This document shows, in pieces, positions 1,104-63,375 of a stretch of DNA of 64,000 nt (position 1 is the first letter of the stretch; each line of letters opens with the position of its first letter). The notes below the pieces were generated by a model. That model was not told the origin of the DNA. It saw only the letters and a list, made by a program, of their open reading frames with translations, and ran no database searches. Source of the stretch: Agrocybe praecox (Eukaryota; Basidiomycota; Agaricomycetes; Agaricales; Agrocybaceae). The stretch covers positions 3,534,001-3,598,000 of the forward strand of contig OZ024849.1 of the NCBI GenBank assembly GCA_964017145.1. The letters run 5' to 3'. A program made the position numbers and the translations under genes.

Positions 1104-2048
1104 ATGCCACAAGATTTTGATTTATCCTCATCTTCTTCGCAAAATAAGAAGGTTTTCAGATGAAGACTGGACCTCCTTCGCCGCCGCCGCCGCCGGTCGG
1201 CACGTCGTCGCACACCCAGGGGGCCCAAATGCCTTATTAACTCTAAGTCCTGCGCTTCCGCTGGGACAGAACACCATATTCACATACATGGAAATCTCAA
1301 TATATCCCAACTCAATAACTTGTACAGCCATTCCCACTCAACGACGAATTCGTACTCGAATTCCAACAACGCGACCACTACTAGTATCCAAGGATCTTTT
1401 AACGACAACTCGAGCTCTGCAAAGCTTGTTACACGCACCATTATAAATGGCAATCGCAATCATGGTAGAGAAGAAATTGGCTTGGCAGAAGATTTACCCA
1501 ATGATACGTTCGAGAATTCAGATATTTTATATCTGCATGGTTATATTAAGACAGATTTACGGAGTCTCGCCATTCAGAGGACCACGATCATCCTATCAAT
1601 CAGATACCTGACGTCAATTGGTCTAATTTGCTCAAGGCGCATCATCAGACGGATCAAGGAGGAGCTGGAGTTGAGATATGCGGACGTTCAGGTATGTCTA
1701 TGTTTCCGTGACACATTAAGTCACACTTACTGACTTTAACTATTGAGGGAATGAAGATGATTCTATCAACCATACAGCTATCGTAAATGGGATTGCAGAT
1801 GCCGAGAATGAGGATCGACTCACAGAAGGTGTGTTCTTATTTCACAACCCTCCCTACAAGTATGGCGCTTACATATGTCTCTGCCGTTTACCGAGAAATT
1901 CATGAAGGACTACATGCAGTACATCCCCCTCTCAGCCAGGTCTATGTGCTCTCTACTCGGTCGGATTTCACTTCTTTCCTTCAGCGTGGGATTGATAGTG
2001 GGGTCTTTGACAGTAGTTAAAGTTAAAACGAAGCATTGTAAATCTTGA
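1104..2048 (+). pseudogene. A1: decayed arginine-rich tail-anchored family gene
   Basis: This is a Family 1, group A copy in the order of intact paralogues. The ATG at 1104 is followed by NKKVFR and then an in-frame TGA at 1161-1163, where paralogues have CGA (Arg). After the stop the same frame continues through the Arg stretch, HIHIHGNLNI, NSNNATTTSIQGSFNDNS and the exon 1 end near 1521. The first intron donor reads AT instead of GT (1522-1523), and the acceptor of the last intron is displaced by a base, with no AG at the homologous position. The C-terminal frame (KDYMQY...GLIVGSLTVV...KS, stop 2046-2048) is still open and hydrophobic. A single C-to-T change at a CpG explains the stop. Called a pseudogene because three independent lesions coincide. 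Confidence 0.8.
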
Positions 2049-5269: not shown

Positions 5270-5420
5270 GGTGCAGATGCGAGTCAAGGACGAATGCAAA
5301 ACAATAACAAGCATCAACACGATGCCTGGACTATGGTTGTCCGTTCGCCGAAAATAAAAAACTATATACTTCTACGATGTACTTACTATGTAGTACCGAT
5401 TTTTCAATAAATTCATACAC

Positions 5421-5606
5421 TACCTTTATTATCCAACATATAAGTCCGATTATCCAACATACATGTAGGATTGTCTAACATATATATTGGGTTGTCCAAC
5501 ATATGTGTTGGGTTGTCCAACACAAAACTTGGGCTATCCAACATATAGATTCGGTTGTCCAACATATAATTTGGATTGTCCAACATGCATGTTGGATTAT
5601 CCACCA
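5421..5606. repeat. 21-bp minisatellite, left arm of FB1
   Basis: About nine tandem units of a 21-bp period (plus strand type GGATTGTCCAACATATGT). Read on the minus strand they give a 7-residue repeat MLDNPTY. Units differ by scattered substitutions. It lies in inverse orientation to the array at 5784-5990. Confidence 0.85.
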
Positions 5607-5783
5607 TAATTCGAGGCAATTACCTTACTCTCGCTCGGCTATGGTGCCGTCCTTGCCGGCCAATTTTGAGCCCTTTCCTGATTGCCAGGCTTCGGCACCT
5701 ACAAACGGATCCCAACGGCCATCAATAATTCCCGGCATCGCCGGCATTCGAAGCGACTAGATGTATGAGAATGACTCTCAACT

Positions 5784-5990
5784 ATGTTGGATAATACAGC
5801 ATATATATTGGACAATCCAATGTGTATAAAGGATAATACAACACATCTATTGGATAATCCAAGTTGTGTGTTGGACAACCCGACACATATGTTGGATAAT
5901 CCGGTACATGTGTTGGATAACCCGATATATATGTTGGACAATCCTACATGTATGTTGGATAATTGGATTTATATGTTGGATAATAAAGGT
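5784..5990. repeat. 21-bp minisatellite, right arm of FB1
   Basis: About ten tandem 21-bp units of type ATGTTGGATAATCC. They are the inverted counterpart of 5421-5606, so together they can form a long imperfect hairpin. Confidence 0.85.
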
Positions 5991-6280
5991 AATGCATGAA
6001 TTTATTGAAATATCGGTACTACATAGTAAGTACATCGTAAAAGTATATAGTTTTTTATTTTCGGCGAACGGACAACCATACTGGACAGGTTTTTCTATCT
6101 CTTTGTCAAAGACCGCTACGAATATCATTCTAAATATCGAATCTACTGGATAAATGGTGTTCGGTCGTCGCACAACTCTCAAGAGCAGATTATCTTTTGA
6201 TTGTCTTGTTTATGGCTGGTATGATGGTATTAGGAGGTATGGCAGTCAATTTCGGCGTTCAGGGACTGGTGCTGGGGTAG

Positions 6281-8179: not shown

Positions 8180-8974
8180 ATGCTACAGCATCCAGATGCT
8201 CGCATATCATTAGCAAACAAGAGGGTTTTCAGACGAAGACTAGACCTACTTCGTCGGCGCCGACGGTCAGCTCGTCGTCGCACATCCGTGGGGGCCAAAT
8301 ACTTTCTCGACGCTAAGCACACCGCTATTTCGGGGAAAGGACACCACATACACATACACGGAAACCTCAATATAGGGCAACTAAATAGCCTGTATAACCG
8401 GTCCCACTCAACGACGAGTTTGTACTCGAATTCCAACAACGCGACCACTACTACTATTCAAGGATCGTTTAACGACAACTCGAGTCATCGAAAGCTTTTT
8501 AAGCGTACTATTTGCAACAGGAGTTGCGATCATAGTGGAGATTGACATGACTCAGCAAAGGACTCCGTCAATGATACATTCGAGCATTCAGGTATTTTAT
8601 ATGTCCATCGTGTATCGAGACAAAATTACGAAACCACGTTAATAAGAGCACCACGACACTCCTACCAATAATACAGCTGAGGAAAAGAGGATTAATCACC
8701 CAGAGGCCGTGGATGAGACATCCAAAGCGGGAGTTGGAGAGCATGAGGATCGACCCACGGAAGGTGCGTTCTTATATTGTACTACCTAGAAATTTCATAC
8801 TCACATAAATGTGTGACGTGCATAGAGAACTCTATGAAGGACTACATGCAGTACTTCGCACTCTCAGCCAGGTCCATGTTCTCTCCACCGGGTCGGGGTT
8901 CGTTCGTATCGTTCGGGGTTGGATTTATAGTAGGGTCTCTGGCAGTATTTAGGTTGAAGCACTTCAAATCATGA
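8180..8974 (+). pseudogene. A2: family gene with premature stop, anchor exon intact
   Basis: Exons 8180-8591, 8647-8763 and 8826-8974. The ATG at 8180 gives MLQHPDARISLANKRVF, then the Arg stretch, HHIHIHGNLNI, and NSNNATTTTIQGSFNDNS. An in-frame TGA at 8543-8545 ends the product after 121 residues. Beyond it the frame continues open through two good phase-1 introns to an anchor exon (FVSFGVGFIVGSLAVFRL, tail KHFKS). Two explanations fit: a recent nonsense pseudogene, or a gene that now makes a soluble, anchorless protein. Intact splice sites favour a recent event. The gene has three exons, against four in A3 or A6. A fragment almost identical to its 3' end lies at 24364-24594. Confidence 0.8.
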
Positions 8975-12817: not shown

Positions 12818-13017
12818 NNNNNNNNNNNNNNNNNNNNNNNNNNNNNNNNNNNNNNNNNNNNNNNNNNNNNNNNNNNNNNNNNNNNNNNNNNNNNNNNNNN
12901 NNNNNNNNNNNNNNNNNNNNNNNNNNNNNNNNNNNNNNNNNNNNNNNNNNNNNNNNNNNNNNNNNNNNNNNNNNNNNNNNNNNNNNNNNNNNNNNNNNNN
13001 NNNNNNNNNNNNNNNNN
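12818..13017. other. Assembly gap (200 N)
   Basis: Exactly 200 N, most likely a placeholder of arbitrary length. The matching position in D4 is near 28237-28260, where the sequence is continuous, so the true gap may be short. Confidence 0.98.
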
Positions 13018-13406: not shown

Positions 13407-14167
13407 ATGTCACCACGCTTAGTGAAGTTTCCGAAACACCGTGTACTCTTTCCACCACCACAACCCCGCAGAATGCTCCTTGTACAAAAGCTACTTCGAC
13501 GGGGGCGTCTTCCAGAGATCCAGGCACTTCGCACTCACATAAATTTTCTTGTCAAGAAATCCACTCCTGCACCCACTGAATATCATATTCATATCCATCG
13601 TAACTTCAACATAAAGCGCCATCGCCGCATCAATATATATGATTATTCCGTGAAGAACACCTATACTAGCTCCAATAACACCACGACCACGACCGTTCAG
13701 GGGTCTTATAACCAGAACTCGGACTTGAAGACAACGTATCTCACGCCCGATGATTCGTACAATGAAAGCGCTTCCGAGTTGGCGTATGATCAAGTGGACG
13801 GCTGTAGCGTCGAGTCTGGTATGTTTCCTTTGCATGTAGATCTGTTTGTATCGTATACAAAACTCCCGGGTCATTACAGTGACGAACAACGGCGCTGATG
13901 CGAACCAAATGGGAGGTGTGGACCGGGGCGATAGTATCAATGTAACTACTCACGTTCAAGGTTAGCCAAATTCGTTCCTCAAGAGTATCAGTAAATCCAC
14001 TGCAGCTCTGACACAACCACATTTTACTCTTAGAGGAATCCATAAATACCTCGGGAACATCGTCCTCAATGGACCTTGCATGCCTTCTTATTTTTCTGTT
14101 CCTTCTCATCTTTATGTTTGGAATCGTAGTAAGGGTTGTCGCAGCAGGCACTCATACCAAGCTCTAG
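13407..14167 (+). CDS. B1: arginine-rich, predicted tail-anchored protein (Family 1, group B)
   Basis: Three exons, 13407-13818, 13880-13960 and 14034-14167, both introns phase 1, give 208 residues. The first 50 residues are basic (RRMLL, LLRRGR). Residues 59-69 read YHIHIHRNFNI and 90-105 NNTTTTTVQGSYNQNS. An acidic region (DDSYNE, ASELAYDQV) follows. The short second exon supplies a polar linker. The last exon starts in Ser/Thr and carries about 20 hydrophobic residues (177-197, ACLLIFLFLLIFMFGIVV), with only HTKL after it, so a tail anchor is predicted. There is no signal peptide. The ATG at 13407 was chosen by alignment to B3. The intact splice sites and open frame argue for a working gene. 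Function is unknown; an amyloid-type signalling role is only inferred. Confidence 0.8.
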
Positions 14168-18476: not shown

Positions 18477-19388
18477 ATGCCATTGAGAAACAAGAAGGTT
18501 CTTAGACGACGGCTCGACAGACTTCGCCGCCGGAAACGGTCCGCTCGTCGTCGCGCTTACTTGGGGGCCAAATACTTTATGAATTCTAACCACTCGGCTT
18601 CTCCCAAGACAGAGAACCACATTCACATACATGGCAACCTCAATATAGCGCAACTCAACAGCCTGTATAACCACAACCACAACAACTCAACGACGCATTC
18701 GTACTGGAATTCCAACAACGCGACCAATACTACGATCCAAGGGTCGTTTAATGACAACTCAAAGTCCTCAAAGCGAGTTACGCATACAGTTCACAAGGAC
18801 AATATCAGTTACGTTGCAGAAGGCTCTGGTCCGGCAGAGGAGTCGGTCAATAATAGGCTTGATCATTCAGGTATTTTATGTTTGTGCGGTAAAATAAGCC
18901 GGACTCACGAACTTTCGACATTCAGAGCACCAGAACAAGTCTACCAACGAGTTAATCCACGTAAAGGCAATAGAACACTTCGAGGATGAGGATCAGACAA
19001 CTGAACCCCTACTTGGAGTCGAAATATGCGAATATTCAGGTATGCCCATCATGGTTCTGTGGTGCATTGAGTCGTACTTACGGACTTCCGTTATTGAGGA
19101 AATCCAGACGCTTCTATCAACCATCAAGCTACTTTGAATGGGATGACAGACGCCGTTAATGAGGATAAACCCATAGAAGGTGCGCTATCGTATCTTACTT
19201 TTAAATATGTACACTCATATAGACCTCTGATGTGCGCAGACAAATCCATGAAGGACTACACGCGGTATTTCTCACTCTCGACCAGGTCCATGTTCACCCC
19301 ACCAGACCTGGTTTCGATTGTTTCTTTGGGCACGGTGATGATCATTGGGTCTCTGGTAATATTCAGGATGAAGCATTTTAAATCCTGA
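18477..19388 (+). CDS. A3: arginine-rich, predicted tail-anchored protein (Family 1, group A)
   Basis: Four exons, 18477-18870, 18926-19039, 19099-19179 and 19240-19388, all introns phase 1, give 245 residues. Residues 10-26 form an Arg stretch (RRRLDRLRRRKRSARRR). HIHIHGNLNI is at 48-57 and NSNNATNTTIQGSFNDNS at 78-95. A charged middle (EDEDQTTE) follows. The last exon carries LVSIVSLGTVMIIGSLVIF (about 219-237) and the short basic tail RMKHFKS. Exons 2 and 3 are 114 and 81 bp, both multiples of three. The Arg stretch could be a nuclear-import or nucleic-acid-binding motif; the basic tail after a single anchor is typical of tail-anchored proteins of the mitochondrial outer membrane or peroxisome. 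Both localisations are inference. The ATG is followed by MPL as in most paralogues. D5 lies 0.66 kb downstream on the same strand. Confidence 0.85.
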
Positions 19389-22368: not shown

Positions 22369-23234
22369 ATGCCATTGCAAAACAAGAAGGTTCTCAAACG
22401 AAGACTGGACCGGCTTCGCCGCCGGAGACGGTCCTCCCGTCGTCGCGCATCAATGGCGGCCAAATACTTTATCAACTCTAATCACTCCGCTTCTGCTGGG
22501 ACAGGACACCACATACACATACACGGGACTCTCAACGTAGCTCAACTCACCAACTTGTATAACCATGCACAGTCCACGACGAATTCGTACTCAAATTCTA
22601 ACAACGTGACCAATACAATTATCCAAGGGTCGTTTAATGATAACTCTAATTCCTCAAAGAGAGTTACGCGTAAAATTCACAAGGAGAGTATCAATTACGC
22701 TGCAGAAGGATTTGGTCCGGCAGAGGAGTCGGTAAATAATAGGCTCGATCGTTCAGGTATTTATATTTGTGTGGTATATTAGGACAGACTTACAAACCTT
22801 ACGAACTCTCGACATTCAGAGCACCACGACAATTCAATCATCCAGACAGCCGATGTAGATGGGATTTGTGAATGTTCAGGTATGCACCTCATGCTTCTGT
22901 GGTTCATTAAGTCATACTTACAGACTTTCGACATTGAGGAAATGGTCACACTTTTCTCAACCATGAAGCTATTGTGAATGGGATCACAGGCGCCGGAAAT
23001 GAGGATAAACCCACAGAAGGTGCGTTCTTGCATTGTACTCCTACTCAGAAATATGTAAACTCATATAAACCTCTGATGTGCGCAGATGAATCCACGAAAG
23101 ACCACGCTCAGTTCTTCTCAATCTCAACTAGGTCCGTATTCGGCCCACCGACTCTGGTTTCGCTCATTTCTGTCGGCACGGTGATAATCATTGGATCTCT
23201 GGTAATATTCAGGATGAAGCCCTTCAAATCCTGA
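22369..23234 (+). CDS. A4: arginine-rich, predicted tail-anchored protein (Family 1, group A)
   Basis: Four exons, 22369-22756, 22820-22879, 22939-23019 and 23086-23234, all phase 1, give 225 residues. The Arg stretch is RRRLDRLRRRRRSSRRR. HHIHIHGTLNV and NSNNVTNTIIQGSFNDNS follow. The second exon is only 60 bp against 114 bp in A3, but it keeps the frame because it is a multiple of three. The anchor exon reads LVSLISVGTVIIIGSLVIF with the tail RMKPFKS. All splice sites conform to GT...AG. No D gene follows it directly; relics and A5 do. Function is unknown. Confidence 0.85.
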
Positions 23235-24363: not shown

Positions 24364-24594
24364 AGATCGACCGACGGAAGGTGCGTTCTTATATTGTACC
24401 CCTACCTAGAAATTTCATACTCACATAAATGTGTGACGTGCATAGAGAAATCTATGAAGGACTACATGCAGTACTTCGCACTCTCGACCAGGTCCATGTC
24501 CTCTCTACCGGGTCGGGTTTCGTTCGTATCGTTCGGCGTTGGATTTATAGTAGGGTCACTGGCAGTATTTAGGTTGAAGCACTTCAAATCATGA
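24364..24594 (+). pseudogene. A5: 3' fragment of an A2-like gene
   Basis: Only the end of the penultimate exon (to 24379), the last intron and the anchor exon (24446-24594, VSFVSFGVGFIVGSLAVFRL) remain. It is nearly identical to 8747-8974. The similarity continues downstream into the D4 region, so this is the left edge of the 4-kb duplication. Confidence 0.85.
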
Positions 24595-29018: not shown

Positions 29019-29781
29019 TTAGAGCTTGGTATGAGTGCCTGCTGAGACCACTCCTACTATGATTCCGAACATAAAGATGAGAAGGAACAGAAAGATGAAA
29101 AGGCATGCAAGGTCCATTGAGGACGATGTCCCCGAGGTATTTATGGATTTCTCTAAGGGTATATAACGTGGTTACGTCAGAGTTGCAGTGGATTTACTTA
29201 TACTCTTGAGTAACGAATTTGGCTAACCTTGAACGCGAGTAGGTACATTGATACTATCGCCCCAGTTCACACCTCCCATTTGGTTCGCATCTGCGCCGTT
29301 GTTCATCGCTGCAATGGCCCGGGAGGTTTATATACGATACAAACACAGTTACATGCGAAGGAAACATACCAGACTCGAGGCTACAGCCGTCCACTTGATC
29401 ATCCGCCAACTCGGAAGCGCTTTCATCGTACGAATCATCAGGCATGGAATACGTTGTCTTCAAGTCCGAGTTCTGGTTATAGGACCCCTGGACGGTCGTG
29501 GTCGTGGTGTTATTGGAGCTAGTGTAGATGTTCTTCACGGAATGATCATAAACACTGACGCGGCGTTGGCGCTTTATGTTGAAGTTGCGATGGATATGAA
29601 TATGATATTCAGCGGGTGCCGGAGTGGAGTTCTTGACCAAGAACTTTATGTGAGTGTGACGTGCCTGGATCCCTGGAAGACGCCCGCGCCGAAGTAGTTT
29701 TTGTAAAAGGAGCATTCTGCGGGGCTGTGGTGGTGGAAAGAGAACGGCATGTACTGTGAAGAGTCTTGAGCGATTTGGCAT
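29019..29781 (-). CDS. B2: arginine-rich, predicted tail-anchored protein (Family 1, group B)
   Basis: Exons 29781-29370, 29308-29228 and 29152-29019, phase-1 introns, give 208 residues. The start MPNRSRLFTVHAVLFPPPQ is followed by RRMLLLQKLLRRGR, YHIHIHRNFNI, NNTTTTTVQGSYNQNS and an acidic stretch (DDSYDESASELADDQV). The last exon carries LACLFIFLFLLIFMFGIIVGVV and ends HTKL. All exon lengths equal those of B1. Upstream, CAGATACTCACTGGTTCCAG directly before the start is shared with B3 and, in part, B4. The gene forms the left arm of an inverted pair with B3. Function is unknown. Confidence 0.85.
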
Positions 29782-30136: not shown

Positions 30137-30799
30137 ATGCCAAATTTCTCAAGACTCTTCACAGTACATGCCGTTCTCTTTCCACCACCACAGCCCCGCA
30201 GAATGCTCCTTTTACAAAAACTACTTAGGCGCGGGCGTCTTCCAGGGATCCAGGCACGTCACAATCGCATAAAATTCCTTGTCAAGAAATCTATTCCTGT
30301 ACGGGCTGAATATCATATTCATATCCATCGCAACTTCAACATAAAGCGCCATCGCCGCGTCAATGTATATGATCATTCCGTGAAAAACATTTACACTAGT
30401 TCCAATAACACCACCACCACCACCGTCCAGGGGTCTTATAACCAGAACTCGGACTTGAAGACAACGTATCTCATGCCTGATGATTCGTACGATGAAAGCG
30501 CTTCCGAGTTGGCGGATGATCAAGTGGACGGCTGTAGCGTCGATGACGGTGCTGGTACATACAAACCGAATGGGAGGTGTGGGCCGGGGCGGTAGTGTCA
30601 ATATATCTACTCGCCTTCAAGGTTAGCCAAATTCGTTCCCCAAGAGTATCAGTAAATCCACTGCAGCTCTGACACAACCACATTTTACTCTTAGAGGAAT
30701 CCGGGAACATCGTCCTCAATAGACCTTGCATGGCTTCTCACCTTTCTGTTTGGAATAGTAGTAGGAGTTGTCGCAGCAGGCACTCATACCAAGCTCTAG
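30137..30799 (+). pseudogene. B3: B-group copy with fused exons and frameshift
   Basis: The ATG at 30137 opens MPNFSRLFTVHAVLF and continues through YHIHIHRNFNI and NNTTTTTVQGSYNQNS to the acidic part. The first intron and neighbouring bases are deleted, joining the exons out of frame; a TAG at 30593-30595 ends a 152-residue product without an anchor. The anchor exon (about 30694-30799) also has an 11-bp deletion and a shortened hydrophobic run. It is therefore either a pseudogene or a soluble truncated form. The second intron keeps its GT...AG ends. Confidence 0.8.
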
Positions 30800-38672: not shown

Positions 38673-39228
38673 CTATGAATTGGCCCTTATTTTAGTCGTT
38701 CTACTCGCGGCTGTTATGATCGAAAGATATTTAGTGTTATCCAACTTGTAGCCTTTCGAACTGTCATTTGTATATGAATTGAAACTTTCATTTATAATTA
38801 TATTGCACAAAGACGATTCAGCGAGCATCTTGGCTGGCTCAGCCTGGCTATGCGTTCGTTGATGGCTATGCGTTCGTTGATGTTCCCAGGTCTGAATGGT
38901 GGTCTGTAGACGTAAATACATACACGTATCATATCTCCAAATAGGGGTCAAGTAAAATGTTATTCTCGCTATCCATCTGTCAAGCGATACAAGAGTTTGA
39001 ATTATCATTATAGGACCCTTGGAGTGTGATAGCAGTCGTGTTGTTAGAATTCAAGCTAGCGTTGGTTATGGACTGGTCACATAAACTGCCGAGTCGTCTT
39101 ATGTCGGTGTTGAGATGGACGTGGAAGTGATATTGTGCCTGTGGAGGATTGTATTCCTTGATGAGGTGTATGTTGTTTAAAGCGAAACGACGCGCAATGT
39201 TGGACCAGAGTCCAGAGCCGATATCCAC
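38673..39228 (-). pseudogene. Divergent Family 1 relic
   Basis: Reading from 39228, the frame gives YHFHVHLNTDIRRLGSLC and NSNNTTAITLQGSYNDNS, which match the two core segments of groups A and B. There is no in-frame ATG: the frame opens at GTG inside a hairpin arm, so the 5' end is lost. A stop follows SCIA. Downstream text (38673-38950) has no hydrophobic anchor in a consistent frame. Called a relic. Confidence 0.65.
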
Positions 39229-39833: not shown

Positions 39834-40515
39834 ATGGGACAATACTCAAGGGTCATTTTCCCTCATCCCCACACACAAGCAACCTTTTACCTACGTCGCA
39901 AGCTGCTACGACGTCGTAAATTATCCAATCGGCCAATTCATCACATTTTCTCTCTTAACATGGTTAATATCCGGCTCAGATCCTCTCCTACTGCACGCAT
40001 CGAGCTACATTTTCATGCCATCGGCGACCTGAGCATTAACAAACTCGTCACTATACACGATAATTCGATCAAATATTCATATTATGATTCCAATAATACG
40101 ACTACAACCACGACTAGGGGATCATATAACACCAAGTCGAATCCCGCATTCTTTACACGTCAAGCTTCCCATGGACATTCGTCCAGCTTGAGCACATCTA
40201 CGCCCACGCCCGGTATGTTTTTTGTTCCATAAAAGATACGCCTTTATTAATATTCGCTTAATTTCTCAATAAACAGATGCAAATGCCAGTCCAGGCCGAA
40301 TGCAAAGCAATAACGAGCATCAACACGATGTTCAGAACGACGCGAATGCCTGGAAAGGTTCGTCTATCTCCTCCTCAAAACTATCATTCTAAATGTTGAA
40401 TCTACCAGACAAATGCCGTTCAGTCGTCGCACAGCTTTCAAGAGCAGATTACATTTTGATTGCCTTGTTTATGGCTGGTATGATAGTATTTATTGGGAGG
40501 ATTTGGAGTCACTGA
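39834..40515 (+). CDS. C1: arginine-rich, predicted tail-anchored protein (Family 1, group C)
   Basis: Exons 39834-40212, 40277-40357 and 40409-40515, phase-1 introns, give 188 residues. MGQYSRVIFP aligns with MPNFSRLFTV of group B, so this ATG was chosen over in-frame upstream ones. RRKLLRRRKL is at 21-30, IELHFHAIGDLSI at 56-68 and NNTTTTTTRGSYNTKS at 87-102. The core Gln is Arg here, unlike groups A and B. The last exon has YILIALFMAGMIVFIG (168-183) and the tail RIWSH. The middle is short and polar. The exon 2 length (81 bp) equals that of B1. It is the only intact C member; C2 is dead. Function is unknown. Confidence 0.8.
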
Positions 40516-42941: not shown

Positions 42942-45747
42942 TCACCCAAAAGACCTAATCCACGCCACACTCGGACTTCGCTCGCCCATCTCCATCTCCA
43001 TATCTCTCCCCATCTCCATCTCCCTCTCCATATGCATCTGTATCTGTATCTGCATCTGCTTCGCCCGCTCATCATACGTCCCGACACTCGGACTCGGCGT
43101 AGGCGTCTCGTCGTCGTCGTCGTCCTCATAGTCGTAGTAATCATACACGAGTTCTTCCACCTCCATGGACGGTGGAGGAGAATCGACAGGACGCGCCGTG
43201 ATACCGCCATCGCCATCGCCATCGCCGTCTATAATCAACGCACTATCGTCGTCATTGTGGTTATAGCTAGTCACCGCCAAAAACCCAGTCGCAGGTATCC
43301 GGAGTGGTGGTGGGGGCGGTGAGGTGCGTTTCGGGACGATAATCAAAGGCGTTGGTGCCGGTGAAGTTGCGGTGGACGGTGAGCTCGAAGAAGCAGACCC
43401 AATCTCCAACAAAGACCGCAACCTCGCACGAGCCTCTTCCTGCGTCTCTGCTCGAGCCTGGGGAACACCCTCGCGCGGAGAGGGTATAGGGAACATATCG
43501 ACCATGGCTGTTATATCGCTCTCATCATCCTCATCGGCCCCATCTCCCACTTCTTCTTCGTCCTCCCACACGCCCAGCCCCCATTTCCTTCTCTCGTCAT
43601 CATTCTCCTCCTCTGTCATACCTCCCGCCCCCCCAGCAACGGCCCAATCATACGAAGGAACAGGCGTCAACCCAGGCGGAGGCGGTGTACGGGGGACGTA
43701 TTTTCTTCTTCCCCCTCTCCCTCTCCCTCGTCCGCCTTCTCCTATCGCTCTTCCCTCCCGGTCTCCCAGTCCTCGGACGATCGTATCATCTTCATCCCCT
43801 TCACCCCCCTCATCATCTTCGTCCTCCAGTCCACTATCCTCTTTACCATGTTCAAAGCCGTCGAAAGGATATTCATCCCCATCATCCCATCCCCTCAATC
43901 CCCCACTCCCATTCCCATAATCATAATCTACATCCCTCCCTAACCCCCCGGAAACCTCGGATCCGTCTCCCCATACCCCTCCCCCTCCCCATTGCCCTGC
44001 CTCCTCCCCGCGTATACCCCTATCCATACCCCATTCATCAAAACTACTCACTTCCCCGAACGAACGCGTCCTCGAAGTTCCCGCCGCCTTCGTCATTCCC
44101 GCGTCGTCCGTCCCCATCATCATCTTCATCGCCGAACTCGAAGCAGGAGAATTTTTCATCTCACTCGTACCCATACCCGGAGGGGATTCCTCAAAAAGAC
44201 CCTCAACGCCCCCCCTCCTCGCCTCAAGCCTCCCGTTCGATCCGCTACAAGAAGCATAACCCGCCTTCAATGATTCTCCCAACCCATCGCTCCCCCTAAT
44301 CGTATCCTTCCAATCCTTACTCCTACCACTACCTCCCCAATCGCACTCCTCCCACCGGTCCGAATCCGCATCTACATCCTGGTGCGCATCCTTATTCATC
44401 AAAACGACATACGTCTTATTCTTATCGGTGCTGTTAACGATGGAGGCGGAGGCGGCGGAGGTCATGCAAGTCGTTATGAACGAGTCCGAGCCCGAGCCCA
44501 AGTCCAAATCGCCCTTGTTTTTGTTGTTAGGGTCGAGTGTTGATATAGGAGTAATCCTAATCGTAGGCCGGCGGTAGGACTTGGACGCCTACGAAGAAAG
44601 GTTAGAACGCGATTATTTTTTTAAAATTTAAAAAAAGGTCGGAGAAATATTGAAAGGTAGGAAGGAGAGACGGAAGGGATTCCAAGGTTCGATATTCGAA
44701 ATGACGGGACGAAAAAAAAAGAAGGAAAGAAGGTAGAAAAAAAGGAGGAAAAGAGGGGGCCGAAAACGAGCGAGGGTGAAGGTGAAACGTTAGAAAGGGT
44801 TCACATTCCAAGACAGGGGGAGGGGGGAGTGAGAAGTGAAAGAATTAAGAGAAGGCAAGCAGGTGAGCGAGCGAAAAAGAAAAGGGATACAACAGAAAAG
44901 AATAGAGAGCAGCATAGAAAGACCGAAGAACAAAGGGGAAAGTAGGACAACGACGAAGAGGACGAAAAAAAAAAAAAAGGAAATGAAACGAAAATAATAA
45001 AAATGAAAACCTACCAGCTGAAACCGCCTCACAGCCGCCTGTGTCCACCTCAACCCGTCCAAATCCGCGAATTCAGCTTTGACGCATGCGAAGGGCCGGA
45101 GGAGGGTTTGTAGGTGTTCCTGTGGGGAGGGAGGGAGGGGGTTAGTATCTGATGCGCTTGGGAAAGGAAAAGGAGGGGGGTGAAAGATAGGAGAAAAAGA
45201 AAGGAAAGTGAGGAGAAGAGAGGAAGGAAAAGAAGGACGGACGAGGGAAGGGGACGAGAAAAACGACGGGGAAAAAACGACGGGGGAGAAGGAGAGGAAC
45301 GGGGACGAAGAAAGAAAGAAAACACACCTCAGTCATCTTGAACGCCTCAGCCTCCTCGAGCGCCATCTCCTGCTCTACCTCCCATAATCGGATTTTCCTC
45401 TGCTCAGCGCGGGAGAGGGTGTGCAGCTGGACGTGGAGCTGCGTCGTCTGGGTCTGCTGGGACCAAGACTGGCCGCTGGCGCTGGTGTTGATACCAACAC
45501 CCCCGCCCTGGGAGAACGCACTCCCAAGATGGGGATATGCCTGCTGGATGCTCCCCTTCGACATCTGCGCCGGCGCTGGTGCTGGTGCTGGTGCTGGTGC
45601 TGGTGCTGGTGCTGGTGCTGGTGCTGTTGAGCCAGATGCTAGGGGTGGTGGGTACGTCCGGGGGCTATGCGTACGGTTGTGCTTGTGGTGGTTGGGCGCC
45701 ACGAGCGAGAACTTGCTTTTGGATTTGGCTGTGTGGTGTGGCGACAT
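42942..45747 (-). CDS. D7: intact large, low-complexity protein of family D
   Basis: Three exons, 45747-45328, 45119-45015 and 44588-42942, give 723 residues. Introns are phase 0, 208 and 426 bp, and pyrimidine-rich on the coding strand. The N-terminus is basic and His/Pro-rich with a (PA)n run at 42-60. A Gln-rich stretch leads into a predicted helical block (TLSRAEQRKIRLWEVEQEM, about 110-140) and, across intron 1, EHLQTLLRPFACVKAEFADL and DGLRWTQAAVRRFQL (141-175). The rest is Ser/Gly/Glu/Asp-rich, with acidic runs and proline segments (PRTPPPPGLTPVP), and is probably disordered. It ends GERSPSVAWIRSFG. I recognise no catalytic motif or named domain. It is the only D copy open throughout. 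A6 lies 0.6 kb upstream on the same strand, with the conserved GATA-type block between. Confidence 0.75.
45571..45626. repeat. GCTGGT microsatellite in D7 exon 1
   Basis: About nine copies of GCTGGT (plus strand), encoding the (PA)n run of D7. D8 and D6 have shorter versions. Confidence 0.9.
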
Positions 45748-46346: not shown

Positions 46347-47266
46347 TCAGGATCTGAAAGGCTTCATCCTGAATACCACCAGAGACCCAATTATTATCAC
46401 CGTGCCCAAGGAAACGAGCGAAACCAGACCCGGTGGAGAGAACATGGACCTGGTTGAGGGTGAGAAATACTGCGCGTAGTCCTTCGTGGATTTATCTGCG
46501 CACGTCAGATACTTATATGAGTGTACATATTTCTAAGTAAAAGTACGATATGAAAACGCACCTTCCATGGGTTTATCCTCATTTTCGGCGCGTGTGATCC
46601 CATCGACGATAGCTTCATGGTTGATAGAAGCGTCTCCATTTCCTCAATAACAAACATTCGTAAGTATAACTTAATGGACGACAAAGATACGATAGACATA
46701 CCTGAACATTCGTCTATTTTGACTCCAAGTGCACCTTCCGTTGTTTGATCCTCAGCCCCAAAGTGTTCCATTGCATTTACGCGGAGTACCTCATTGATAG
46801 AATTGTTCTGGTGCTCTGCATGTCGAGCGTTCGTAAGTCTATCTAATATATCACGCAAACTGAACATACCGGAACGGCCGAGCATATTATTGACGGAGTA
46901 CTCTGGCGGACCAGATCCTTCTGCAGAGTAATTGATATTATCCCTGTGAACTGTACGCGTAACTCGGTTGGTGAAGGTAGAGTTATCATTAAATGATCCT
47001 TGGATAGTAGTATTGGTCGCGTTGTTGGAATTCAAGTACGAATTCGTCGTTGAGTTGTTGTGGTTGTGGTTATAGAGGCTGTTGAGTTGCGCTATATTGA
47101 GATTTCCATGTATATGAATGTGGTGTCCTGTCCTGGCAGTAGAAGCCGAATGGTTAGAGTCGAGAAAGGATTTGGCCCCCATGGATGCGCGACGACGAGT
47201 AGACCGTCTGCGGCGGCGAAGTCTTTCCAGCCTTCGCCTGTGAAGCTTTATGTTTTTTAATGGCAT
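46347..47266 (-). CDS. A6: arginine-rich, predicted tail-anchored protein (Family 1, group A)
   Basis: Exons 47266-46870, 46815-46702, 46642-46562 and 46495-46347, all phase 1, give 246 residues. RRRLERLRRRRRSTRRR occupies 10-26, HHIHIHGNLNI 48-58 and NSNNATNTTIQGSFNDNS 79-96. Exon 2 and exon 3 (38 and 27 codons) form an acidic middle. The anchor LVSLVSLGTVIIIGSLVVF (221-239) is followed by RMKPFRS. The reading frame happens to stay open through the first three exons and their introns, so intron retention would give a longer product without an anchor. D7 lies downstream on the same strand; this is the one A-D pair in which both partners are intact. Confidence 0.87.
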
Positions 47267-49315: not shown

Positions 49316-50228
49316 TCAGGATTTGAAAGGCTTCATCTTGAGTACTACCAGCGACCCAATGATTATTACGGTGCCCAAAGAAACGAGCGAAACCAGGCCT
49401 GGTGGGGCGAACATGGACCTGGTTGAGAGTGAGAAATACTGCATGTAATTTTTGACGCATTTCTCTGTGCACGTCAGATGCTTATATGAGTGTACATGTT
49501 GCCAGCTATGAGTACGCTACAATAACGCACCTTCCATGGGTTTATCCTCATTTCCGGAGCCTGTGATCCCACTGACAATAACTTCATGGTTGATAGGAGC
49601 GTCTCCATCTCCTCAATAACAAGCGTCCGTAAGTATAACTTCATGGACCACAAGCATGACGGACATACCTGCACATTCGCATATTTCGACTCCAAGTGCA
49701 CCTTCCGTTGTTTGATCCTCAGTCTTGAAGTGTTCCATTGCCTTTACGTGCAGTATCTCATTGATAGAATTGTTCTGGTCCTCTGAGTAGCCAAAGTTCA
49801 TAAGTCTGGCTTATTTCACTACACAAACGGGAAATACCTGAACAATCGAGCCTATTATTGACCAACTCCTCTGTCGGACCAGATCCTTCTGCAGCGTAAT
49901 TGATATTCTCCTTGTGAACTGTACGCGTAACTCGCTTTGAGGAATTAGAGTTATTATTAAACGACCCTTGGATAGAAGTATTGGTCGCATTGTTGGAATT
50001 GGAGTACGAATTTGTCGTGGACTGTGCGTGGTTATACAAGTTGGTGAGTTGGGCTACGTTGAGATTGCCATGTATGTGAATGTGGTGTTCTGTCCCAGAA
50101 ATAATGTGATGCTTAGACTCGAGAAAGTACTTGGCCGCCATGTGTGCACGACGACTAGCCGCCTGTCTCCGGCGACGAAGCCGGTCCAGTCTTCGTTTTA
50201 GAAGCTGCTTGTTTCTCAATCCCACCAT
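49316..50228 (-). CDS. A7: arginine-rich, predicted tail-anchored protein (Family 1, group A)
   Basis: Exons 50228-49838, 49782-49669, 49611-49531 and 49464-49316, phase 1, give 244 residues. The start MVGLRNKQLL differs from the usual MPL. The Arg stretch is KRRLDRLRRRRQAASRR, more diverged than elsewhere. HHIHIHGNLNV and NSNNATNTSIQGSFNNNS follow. The anchor exon reads LVSLVSLGTVIIIGSLVVL with the tail KMKPFKS. Splice sites are all GT...AG. No D gene follows within 1 kb; the orphan D block (48130-48400) does, which suggests a lost D partner. Function is unknown. Confidence 0.85.
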
Positions 50229-54592: not shown

Positions 54593-55511
54593 TCAGGATC
54601 TGAAATGCTTCATTCTGAATACGACTAGAGACCCGATTATTATCACCGTGCCCAAAGAAACGAGCGAAACCAGACCCGGTCGAGAAAACATGGACCGGGT
54701 TGAGTGTGAGAAGTACTGCGCGTAGTCCTTCGTGGATTTATCTGCACGTTAGAGGTCTATATGAGTGTACATAGTTCTATATAGGAGTACGACACATTAA
54801 CGCACCTTCCGTGGGTTTATCCTCATTTCCGGCGCCTATGGTCCCATTCACAATAGCTTCATGGTTGATAGAAGCGTCTCCGTTTCCTCAATAACAAACG
54901 TCCGTAAGTATAAATTAGTGGACGACAAAAGCATGACGGGCATACCTGAACATTCGCATATTTCAACGCCAAGTGCACCGTTCGTTGTTTGATCCTCAGC
55001 CTCGAAGTGTTCTATTGCCTTTACGTGGAGTACCTCATTCATATAATTGTTCTGGTGCTCTGAATGTCAACCGTTCGTAAGTCCATCATAATATATCACG
55101 CAAACTGAGCATACCTGAACGACCGAGCATACCATTGACGGACTCCTCTACCGGGCCAGATCCTTCTGCAGAGTAATTGATATTATCCCTGTGAACTGTC
55201 CGTGTAACTCGCTTTGTGGAGGTAGAGTTATCATTAAATGGTCCTTGGATAGTAGTATTGGTTGCGTTGTTGGAATTCCAGTACGAATTGGTCGTTGAGT
55301 TGTTGTGGTTGTGGTTATACAGGCTGTTGAGTTGCCCTATATTTAGATTCCCATGTATATGAATGTGGTGTTCTGGCCTGGCAACAGAAGCGGAGTGGTT
55401 AGAGTTGAGAAAGTATTTGGCCCCCATGTATACACGACGACGAGCGGACCGTCTCCGGCGACGAAGTCGGTCCAGCCGTCGTCTAAGAACCTTCTTGTTG
55501 CTCAATGGCAT
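54593..55511 (-). CDS. A8: arginine-rich, predicted tail-anchored protein (Family 1, group A)
   Basis: Exons 55511-55115, 55059-54946, 54886-54806 and 54741-54593, phase 1, give 246 residues. The Arg stretch is RRRLDRLRRRRRSARRR, followed by HHIHIHGNLNI and NSNNATNTTIQGPFNDNS. The core Ser after QG is Pro here, the only such change among the intact members. The anchor exon is open to the usual tail KHFRS. Exon sizes equal those of A6 throughout, so A6 and A8 are close duplicates. It pairs with D8 downstream. Function is unknown. Confidence 0.85.
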
Positions 55512-57090: not shown

Positions 57091-57822
57091 TTACAAGTAA
57101 GATACAGCTATATATGCGACTATCATCCCAGCTCCGAAAGCAGTGATTGAGTCATGATGGGATTGGACGAATTTGGCTGCAGCCGCACATCGTTCCATGC
57201 AATTCTTCATACAGTTCCCTGGAAAGTCAGAGATATTTAGGTTTATATTTCCTTCTAAGTGGGAGTGCGAAAATGAACGAACCTCCTGGGATCCTGTCCT
57301 CTACATCAACACGAGTCTCCTCGTTTATGCTTTCAATCTGGTCAGTTGAATTCTGGTTCTCTAGAATCTTGGAATCAGTAAACATGTCCAATGTATACAT
57401 ATATCCATAAATTTAGGGGTACTACCTGAGCGCTCAAACGAAGGGGCCAAACCGTCGGCGGAGCCATGTCTTTCTCCATCCTGGTAACGATTCAGATTCA
57501 GATTGGTACGCATAACGATATTTGCAGAGCTGGAATTGTCATTGAAGGACCCTTGAATGGTGGTAGTGGTCGCGTTGTTGGAATTAATGTATGAATTGGT
57601 CGTTGAGTGGGATTGGCCATAAAAATTATCGAGTCGGCGTATATTGAAGTTTCCATGGATGTGGATGTGGTATTGCTTTGAAGTATAAGAAGAGCGCTGC
57701 ATTTTGAGAAGATATCTAGTGCCCACGAGTAAGCGACGACGTGCTAGATGGCGTCGGTGTCGAATTAGGCGCAACCTATGTCTGAGAATACGGTCCCTAT
57801 TTGCTGTTGAAAGAAGAGGCAT
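57091..57822 (-). CDS. A9: divergent arginine-rich, predicted tail-anchored protein
   Basis: Exons 57822-57426, 57360-57283 and 57218-57091, phase 1, give 200 residues. The Arg-rich start is spread out (RDRILRHRLRLIRHRRHLARRR). YHIHIHGNFNI (51-61) and NSNNATTTTIQGSFNDNS (80-97) are exact family matches. The middle is one 26-codon exon. The last exon has CMKNCMERC, Ala-rich text and a terminal hydrophobic run ITAFGAGMIVAYIAVSYL with no tail after it. The acceptor of intron 1 at 57361 was chosen because an alternative 10 bases upstream would give a stop. It combines A-type core and B/C-type three-exon structure. Flanked on both sides by ~100-bp repeats. Confidence 0.8.
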
Positions 57823-57959
57823 TATGATGAAGCAGGCGTTCAAGTGCACAGTTGATAAAGGGTATAATATGAATGACGAGAACCGAGAGACTTATATGTG
57901 CCAAGTGAGTCAAAATAGAACTGTGGCACTACTTCTTTTGAGGACCTCCGGAGCGGTAC

Positions 57960-60831: not shown

Positions 60832-61059
60832 TCAGGATTTGAACGGTTTCATCCTAAATACTACCAAAGACCCAATTATTATCACCGTGCCCAAATAAAC
60901 GAGCGAAACCAGACCCTGTGGGGTGAACATGGACCTGGTTGAGAGTGAGAAATACTGTGCGTAGTCCTTCATAGATTTATCTGCGCATATCAGAGGTCTA
61001 TATGAGTGTACATACTTCTACGTTGGGTTACAATACACGAACGCACCTTCCATGGGTCT
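60832..61059 (-). pseudogene. A10: anchor-exon fragment cut by FB2
   Basis: The anchor exon (LVSLVYLGTVIIIGSLVVF-type frame, stop at 60832) and the intron before it are present, and the text ends at the preceding exon (CGCACCTTCCATGGGTCT) where FB2 begins. The rest of the gene is absent on the far side of FB2, so the insertion was accompanied or followed by a deletion. Confidence 0.8.
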
Positions 61060-61179
61060 TATGGCTGTCCGTTTGCACAAAGTAAAAAAGTATATAGTTG
61101 AGCCGTATAATTACTATATTGTATGCATATATGAATGAATATATACATTACCACCATTCTCCGACTCATAAGTTAGGTT

Positions 61180-61320
61180 GTCCAACACAGTTGCTGGATT
61201 ATCCAACATAGTTGTCGGATTATCCAACACATGTATCGGATTATCCAACATATGTGTCGGATTATCCAACATATGTGTAGGATTATCCAACACATGTACT
61301 GGATTGTCCAACACTATGTG
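61180..61320. repeat. 21-bp minisatellite, left arm of FB2
   Basis: About seven units, plus strand type GGATTATCCAACATATGTGT. Inverse of 62070-62240. Confidence 0.85.
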
Positions 61321-62069
61321 TGCCGTTGCGTCCAATATATATCATTTCGCTCGGCTAAGAAAGCCGAGCATGCCGAAGGTCTTTGATTGCCATTTTGATC
61401 TTGTTCACAGCCTGTATCGGCATGGTTCAGTTGGATTCGGCGCGACGCCGTTTTGATGCGGCCATGTATTAGTGCTGCGCATGCAATGCGTCGAAAATGA
61501 TGCGCGTCACGTCCTTCCATATATGGAAACCGCTACTTCCTGGGTGTTCCTCTCGCTCAATTGTGCTGCCCCGCAATGGCAAGACACCAAATATTCAAAA
61601 TAGTTTCGGAAATAGTATGCCAGACATATATAGAGCATTCAATATCAGTTTTGTGGACCCCCGAGGGGTATGCACTATATAAGTATACAATTAAGTGCAT
61701 TAAGTGGCGAATCACCAAGATTTAAGGATCACTCTTTTATTATATTTCTCGATTGAGTCAGAGAAAATTCCAATTGTTATGTGTTAAAAGCAGCGAAAAT
61801 CAGTTGCATACTTGATTTAAACACAGATTTCTCTAAGTCCGCTTGTACGGCAATCTCCGGTTGCTACGCAATGCGCATCATTTTTGACGTATTTCTCGCA
61901 CAGCCACGCGCATCACCAATGTACATGGCCGCATCAGAACGGTGTTGTGCCGAGTTTAACTCAGCCATGCCGATACAGGCCACGAACAAGATCAGAAATG
62001 CAATCACAGACCTTCGGCATGCTCGGCTTTCTTAGCCGAGCGAAATGATATATATTGGACGCAACGGCA

Positions 62070-62240
62070 CACATAGTGTTGGACAATCCAGTACATATGT
62101 TGGATAATCCTACACATATGTTGGACAATCCAGTACATGTGTTGGATAATCCTACACATATGTTGGATAATCCGATACATGTGTTGGATAATCCGACAAC
62201 TATGTTGGATAATCCAGCAACTATGTTGGACAACCTAACT
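62070..62240. repeat. 21-bp minisatellite, right arm of FB2
   Basis: About eight units, type ATGTTGGATAATCC with variants. It translates as MLDNPTH repeats on the plus strand, without any start or context of a gene. Confidence 0.85.
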
Positions 62241-62602: not shown

Positions 62603-63375
62603 TTATGCATGAACATAGAGCTCGATGTGAATGGCTGCTGCGACCATTCCTATCATGATTCTAACCAGGAACGTGAAAACGTAATTGAGATCTATTGGAG
62701 ACGCTGTCCCGGAAGGAATTATGGATCCCTCTGAGCGAATAATTGGTTTGCGGCGTCAGCACTGGAGTGACTTGATTGATACCCCTTGGGCAAAAAAAAA
62801 AGTGACTAACCTTGCACTCGAGCAGCTGTATTGGCATTATTTCTCTGGTCCATACGTCCCATTTGGTTCCTATTATCGACATCGCTCGTCGCTATAATGC
62901 ACCTGGAGAATTGAGTACCATACAAACATGGCTTAAGTGAGGGGAGCATACCAGACTCGATGCCAGCGGCACTAACTTGGTCATCCGCCAATTCGGAAGT
63001 GCTTTCCTCGTCCGAACCGAAGCTGTCCCTAATGTGATCGGGACGCTTAGGATATGTGGTCATCAAGTCCGAGTTCTGGTTATAGGACCCCTGAATGGTC
63101 GTGGTCGTAGTTTTATTGGAATTAGTTGCAATCTTCACAGAAGAGTCATATACATTGACGCGCCGCTTTACGGTCAAGTTGCGATGAATATGAACATGGT
63201 ATTGAGCGCGCGCAGGAGCGAACCTCTTGAAGACCAATTTTACGCGAGTGAGATCCACTGGAAGAGCTGAAAGACGATGTCGTCGAAGAAGCCTTTGTAT
63301 AAGGAGCATTCTGCGTAGTTGAGGTGGTGGAAAGAGAACGGAATGTACCGTGAAGAGTCTTGAGTAATTTGCCAT
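62603..63375 (-). CDS. B4: divergent B-group protein, weak anchor
   Basis: Exons 63375-62952, 62891-62811 and 62730-62603, phase 1, give 210 residues. MANYSRLFTVHSVLFPPPQ, RRMLLIQRLLRRHR, YHVHIHRNLTV and NKTTTTTIQGSYNQNS follow the B order. An added stretch (RPDHIRDSFGSDEE) precedes the acidic part. The last exon has YVFTFLVRIMIGMVAAAIHI, a hydrophobic run interrupted by one Arg, and a longer tail IELYVHA; membrane insertion is therefore less certain than in B1 and B2. Splice sites are all GT...AG. It lies next to FB2. Function is unknown. Confidence 0.78.

Follow-up and report, generated by a model that had tools for sequence, protein, structure and literature searches.

The window, by which we mean the whole stretch of 64,000 nucleotides analysed here, is part of contig C10 (3,660,940 bases), 63 kb short of that contig's end, in a 59.17 Mb genome whose short introns, STE3-type receptor cluster and NACHT matches suggest an agaricomycete. 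Gene A6, on the reverse strand of the window, is borne out by a spliced-model search that recovers a four-exon gene for a protein of 246 residues (Table 1), with introns of 54, 59 and 66 nt. Five other full models (18k, 22k, 50k, 55k and C4) have corresponding introns, as does, apart from its last residues, the L010 copy just upstream of the window; agreement is favoured because the models were selected by their likeness to the A6 (46k) model. The A6 protein combines a basic N-terminus, an Asn/Thr/His-rich core (residues 46-100) with few hydrophobic residues, then an acidic linker and, at the C-terminus, a transmembrane segment, the net charge running from +14 over residues 1-45 through -1 in the core and -9 over 101-215 to +3 after the anchor. 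That anchor, also part of the earlier reading, is the single segment of its kind in A6, the best Kyte-Doolittle value before residue 200 being -0.02; hydropathy was computed for the A6 copy, and the dN/dS alignment shows the segment retained in the other full models. No Pfam domain in A6 exceeds its cut-off, the matches below it having E-values of 0.14 and 0.39. The basic N-terminus was also considered as an amphipathic membrane-active helix, a candidate not supported by its moment, which does not exceed that of shuffled sequences (76 to 494 of 500 shuffles were as high across the 19 aligned rows).

Table 1. Genes, family copies and protein segments in the window (window coordinates; residue numbers refer to A6)
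Feature	Position	Strand	Basis or remark
Gene A6 (46k), 246 aa, four exons	46347..47266	-	spliced-model search
A6 exons 1 to 4	47266-46870, 46815-46702, 46642-46562, 46495-46347	-	
A6 residues 1-45, Arg-rich basic N-terminus, net charge +14	47132..47266	-	dN/dS 0.48
A6 residues 48-57, HHIHIHGNLN, alternating-His stretch and first turn	47096..47125	-	H51 19/19; dN/dS 0.04
A6 residues 72-84, STTNSYLNSNNAT, conserved middle block	47015..47053	-	S72, S80, N81, T84 each 19/19
A6 residues 85-96, NTTIQGSFNDNS, second turn	46979..47014	-	N93, S96 19/19; G90 18/19; dN/dS 0.06; recurs in P0001-P0004
A6 residues 221-239, C-terminal transmembrane anchor, then short basic tail	46371..46427	-	Kyte-Doolittle mean 2.56
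Full group A model, 245 aa (18k)	18477..19388	+	spliced-model search
Full group A model, 225 aa, shorter exon 2 (22k)	22369..23234	+	spliced-model search
Full group A model, 244 aa (50k)	49316..50228	-	spliced-model search
Full group A model, 246 aa, second turn IQGPFN (55k)	54593..55511	-	spliced-model search
Group A copy, exon pieces, tentative model	1179..2027	+	
Group A copy, doubtful model, in-frame stop downstream of core	8180..8974	+	
Group A subtype copy (IHGNFN/IQGSFN), first-exon open frame	57361..57849	-	
C-terminal anchor exon without core nearby (fragment)	24445..24591	+	
C-terminal anchor exon without core nearby (fragment)	60835..60981	-	
Group B copy, first exon; downstream splicing unsettled	13473..13820	+	
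Group B copy, first exon; no model found downstream	29368..29715	-	
Group B copy, first exon	30203..30550	+	
Group B copy, first exon	62950..63309	-	
Group C copy, core, first Gly absent	38992..39192	-	
Group C copy, core	39849..40160	+	
Second family, one long open frame	within 42942-45747	-	genome search

A6 belongs to a clustered family. Searched at E <= 10 with a 61-residue query from the core, the genome yields 20 matches: one on C4, one on C7 and the other 18 in the C10 interval 3.514-3.605 Mb; the weakest, at position 3605120 of C10 (E 0.53), itself retrieves 11 matches when used as query, including itself and all on C10. The copies lie on both strands, among long inverted matches and fragments, and in groups B and C the anchor is visible only as downstream hydrophobic open frames whose splicing is unsettled. 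Retrotransposition of the two outlying copies is unlikely because the C4 copy has lost none of its three introns and the C7 copy has kept intron 1, the stretch around its introns 2 and 3 being missing. The C7 copy sits between two similar stretches that we take to be AP-3 beta adaptin-like (L066, C7:1136500-1141942, and L067, C7:1145327-1149000), and the C4 copy near what is presumably a WD-repeat gene. The window further contains a run of 200 N (12818-13017) and two pairs of inverted repeats, each possibly a mobile element: 61157-61468 with 61922-62233 (312 nt, 453 nt between the arms) and 5332-5608 with 5804-6080 (277 nt, 195 nt between the arms).

An alignment of 19 copies, 14 in the window and five outside it (L060 being left out of the 20 places), has seven positions that are invariant throughout: H51, S72, S80, N81, T84, N93 and S96. 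In the first element the His residues are kept better than the Gly, with H51 in all 19 copies and H49 in 18 as compared with Gly in 13 (Arg in five, Leu in one); a third His is absent from two copies (40k and L010), and the core holds neither Cys nor a further conserved His. Since H51 is invariant, H-[IFV]-H describes this element better than a Gly turn does. The spacing of 36 between the two Gly residues was correctly read for A6 (positions 54 and 90); as a feature of the family it does not stand, the offset being 36 in five copies of 19 and 34 in nine, with a range of 30-36. Nor do both literal turns occur in every intact member, as had been claimed: IHGNLN or IHRNFN is found in 11 of the 19 rows and IQGSFN or VQGSYN in 14, the exceptions including the full-model copies 22k (IHGTLN), 55k (IQGPFN) and C4 (IQESFN). 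The statement that the sequences between the turns vary is only partly right, because four of the invariant residues (S72, S80, N81 and T84) lie there and the middle block TTNSYxNSNN is well kept as part of the conserved unit. The alignment, dN/dS and gene models do support, within the searches made, the broader claim of two conserved turns with a C-terminal anchor.

The two turns also resemble each other. Within exon 1 the likeness of IHGNLN to IQGSFN ranks first among 116 six-residue windows, and only two of 7381 window pairs score as high in the 12 group A rows (five of 7381 over all 19). At nine residues the likeness is weaker, with 38 of 6670 group A pairs as high. When the two 21-residue blocks were compared by hhalign, at most three columns aligned, with a score of 5.56 that 96 of 200 column shuffles equalled or exceeded, and which therefore lends no support to a repeat. 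A 21-residue internal repeat of the HET-s kind was thus not found by this comparison, the pseudo-repeat extending over about six residues.

Pooled Nei-Gojobori estimates from the 21 pairs of seven full models put dN/dS at 0.04 in turn 1 (residues 48-57) and 0.06 in turn 2 (85-96), and at 0.42 for the whole protein. Elsewhere it is 0.48 for residues 1-45, 0.25 for 58-84, 0.71 for 101-132, 0.36 for 198-220, 0.55 for exon 2, 0.82 for exon 3 and 0.41 for the anchor with its tail. Without L010 the corresponding values are 0.46 for residues 1-45, 0.02 for turn 1, 0.28 for 58-84, 0.10 for turn 2, 0.70 for 101-132, 0.60 for exon 2, 1.09 for exon 3, 0.40 for 198-220, 0.26 for anchor and tail and 0.42 overall. 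The low ratios in the turns arise partly because synonymous change there is high, dS being 1.25 and 1.00 (near saturation) against 0.45 overall; replacement change is nonetheless low in itself, with pN of 0.047 and 0.061 in the turns against 0.169 overall. Among the first exons of 12 group A copies, none of 5000 random 21-codon sets drawn from the exon, and one of 5000 drawn from within residues 46-100, had as few replacement changes as the turns, and the 8-codon windows with the least replacement came from IQGSFNDNS and IHIHGNLN. In five group B copies, 10 of 5000 exon sets and 583 of 5000 within-core sets were as low, so that there the turns stand out from random exon codons and not clearly from the rest of the core. 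Purifying selection on the core is thus well supported by these codon comparisons; it says nothing on the role of the core and fits a binding motif or a metal site equally.

That the family is undescribed, as proposed earlier, holds within the Pfam, protein, profile, PDB and literature searches made. A single-sequence protein search yielded 1210 candidates, none at E <= 1; a PDB profile search gave no matches; Pfam searches with 19 members, for which cut-offs were given for the first member only, produced weak matches to 12 families (best E 0.0086). In prokaryote and viral collections, 8, 95 and 27 stretches fit the patterns searched, none of them encoding a relative, and a further pattern had no match. 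Four peptide strings from the core were not found in the literature searched, and the titles and abstract openings retrieved on the topic do not name the family. The genome itself holds 19 matches to HIHIHxN (two in the control), 13 of them in the family, and of the six outside it the five that were read are unrelated. It likewise holds 20 matches to an IQG-x-[FY]N-type pattern (control 7), 11 in the family and the three read of nine others unrelated, and 15 to a GSFNDNS-type pattern (control 7), 12 in the family and all three others unrelated.

A profile search among the 8000 candidates sharing most words returned one weak hit, P0001, whose database-wide E-value of 6.3 makes for a weak link. 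Its region 136-180 retrieves four candidates, the query included, and the three relatives, P0002-P0004, are 70-84% identical to it; because these proteins of 135-190 residues are close relatives of each other, they count as one independent occurrence and not four. All carry NSNNxNYTTIQGSYND[NS]S near the C-terminus, matching the second-turn block of the family. P0001 and the first exon of A6 share 17 of 29 residues by BLASTP (E 8e-9 for this single comparison), and on an ungapped 20-column profile of the family P0001-P0004 score 51.7-52.1 bits, where family members score 50.4-72.1 and 20000 shuffles of each 75-residue tail reach at most 22.8-29.2. These proteins differ from the family in lacking the HIHIH element and, as judged by eye over the listed part, whose ends may be cut, the C-terminal anchor. 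P0004 has no clear relative in this genome, its two matches having E-values of 2.08 and 5.61. The shared block may stem from common descent; low-complexity convergence is another possible account of it.

The comparison with amyloid motifs was prompted by the plan of the protein. The HRAM rule, in the portion of PMC4518210 available to us, calls for Gly at position 19 and hydrophobic residues at 5, 8, 10, 16 and 18. The Gly is present in 13 of 19 copies in turn 1 and 18 of 19 in turn 2; hydrophobic residues (A, V, I, L, M, F, Y, W or C) occupy the five other positions in 0, 6, 0, 0 and 2 copies of 19 in turn 1 and in 6, 0, 0, 1 and 0 in turn 2, and membership in this motif fails at most positions in both turns. 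PF11558 is absent from the Pfam matches of the family and has no match in the genome, in a search equally silent in the control genomes. The family shares with the HET-s/HRAM beta-solenoid of ascomycete HeLo proteins two short resembling elements, Gly/Asn at the turn and a protein that possibly acts at a membrane. It differs in lacking the hydrophobic core positions, in a likeness of about six residues instead of 21, in its variable spacing, in having no Pfam domain in the searched copy A6 and no NLR partner found and, relative to HET-S, in its order, with the motif mid-protein and the anchor C-terminal. The likeness to the PP motif and RHIM, whose GxQxG segment is given in the part of PMC5485727 we drew on, extends to Q and G within a short polar stretch and goes no further: GxQxG occurs in none of the 19 copies, the family having no residue between Q and G. 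Judged by these comparisons the core appears to fall outside HRAM, PP and RHIM; it may nevertheless work by assembly, and amyloid-type signalling by the family is possible.

Our leading reading, offered tentatively, is that these are lineage-restricted tail-anchored membrane proteins whose core would serve homotypic self-association. The C-terminal segment would insert post-translationally, leaving the core in the cytosol. There, H-I-H-I-H and T-T-I-Q-G-S-F-N would form strands, each ending in a turn, that might pack as short beta rungs with stacked Asn, Thr and His side chains, so that family members could assemble with one another at the membrane face. Such self-association would explain a core that stays alike from group to group (A, B and C) between diverging flanks. 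At the membrane the output might be a scaffold or, in self/non-self recognition or defence, membrane damage, a guess suggested by the clustering of the array and the divergence of its copies. Speaking for self-association are the selection in the turns, the IHGNLN/IQGSFN likeness, the seven invariant residues, the anchor, the P0001-P0004 block and the array itself; against it count the shortness of the pseudo-repeat, the hydrophobic-poor core, the high dS in the turns and the weak within-core contrast in group B.

The mechanism closest to the earlier reading, in which an NLR N-terminal motif templates the core in the manner of HET-S, draws on a genome in which at least 88 NACHT matches pass the Pfam cut-off and on the amyloid-like motifs reported on Agaricomycete NLRs in the accessible text of PMC9815663, according to which only 23% of basidiomycete NLR N-termini can be annotated. 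We scanned about 1.3-1.5 kb of DNA upstream of the best 30 of the 88 NACHT loci, in gene-sense frames and by regular expression, and found the turn pattern of the family at none of them; genome searches with the core likewise match only within the family, so that, within the sensitivity of these searches, the expected motif partners in NLR genes were not found. A different GG-type pattern has six matches in five of the 30 loci. At L011 and L024, segments of the form GGxFxx[IV]xGD (VFGGTFTTVEGD and VAGGNFTQINGD) lie just upstream of the NACHT frame; they are probably an NLR N-terminal motif distinct from the family core and, in our judgement, resemble the published mushroom NLR motifs as far as the consulted part of PMC9815663 describes these. 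With those motifs (NLR05, NLR08, NLR22, NLR29 and NLR44 in the same part of that source) the family has in common a mushroom-type genome and short segments that contain Gly and an aromatic residue; they differ in being located on NLR proteins, whereas the turn pattern of the family was not found upstream of NACHT in the 30 loci scanned. Taken with the departures from HRAM and GxQxG, these results leave NLR-templated signalling extremely doubtful. A metal site (zinc, copper or nickel) at the conserved H-x-H(-x-H), in a metal-binding protein that is tethered to the membrane, whether it assembles or not, would account for the better conservation of H49 and H51 than of the first-turn Gly, and it has a parallel in alternating His/aliphatic peptides such as the designed IHIHIQI, described in the section of PMC8431744 at hand as binding zinc and forming catalytic amyloid. 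Most family copies have a like alternation in HIHIH; those peptides, however, are artificial 7-mers. We consider a metal site unlikely, given the want of Cys or additional conserved His in the core, the two copies without the third His and a sole metal-related Pfam match that is weak and confined to one of 19 members (YgjP-like metallopeptidase, E 0.044). A composite, in which HIHIH would bind metal, TTIQGSFN would template and the second-turn block would be portable to another architecture, giving a natural, membrane-tethered, metal-responsive functional amyloid for assembly-based recognition in mushrooms independently of HET-s, PP and RHIM, strikes us as highly improbable.

A less distant competitor of the self-association reading, though still somewhat unlikely in our estimate, is that the core serves another protein as a linear recognition peptide or as a disordered adaptor; the anchor would place it at the membrane, and it would not assemble with itself. 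The short, polar and strongly conserved core in an otherwise drifting protein agrees with this, as do an offset that varies over 30-36, as linkers between binding points may, and the recurrence of the block in the other architecture of P0001-P0004; two resembling turns per chain and the beta-like alternation of HIHIH suggest instead a folded or stacked structure. The cluster also contains a second undescribed family, rich in Asp/Glu, Gly and Pro as read, with 12 matches in the genome, all on C10; three of its open frames were compared with Pfam, and none matched at E <= 1. Its co-amplification with the first raises the idea of a killer or selfish element in which the array would encode a membrane-acting poison and the acidic family its counterpart, the basic N-terminus of the one and the Asp/Glu-rich character of the other fitting such a pairing. 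Only one of the 12 matches, however, is a long open frame; the 11 others are pieces, six of them with internal stops. Pieces of this family lie in the window near 10k, 16k, 25k, 34k, 53k and 59k, among other places. The first family moreover has copies on C4 and C7, where the second has no match, and a killer element seems to us distinctly unlikely.

To our knowledge, few of the molecules by which mushrooms tell self from non-self have been identified. A clustered family that mostly drifts while keeping a short assembly-like core is a concrete candidate for such a role; should the core prove non-assembling, it would still stand as an undescribed motif under strong selection. Since part of it recurs in another protein family, it offers a motif to seek in fungal proteomes. 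Elsewhere in this genome, on contig C2 (G000 C2:1348171-1379441), matches to STE3-type pheromone receptors, of which there are 41 in all, form a cluster that is probably a mating-type locus.
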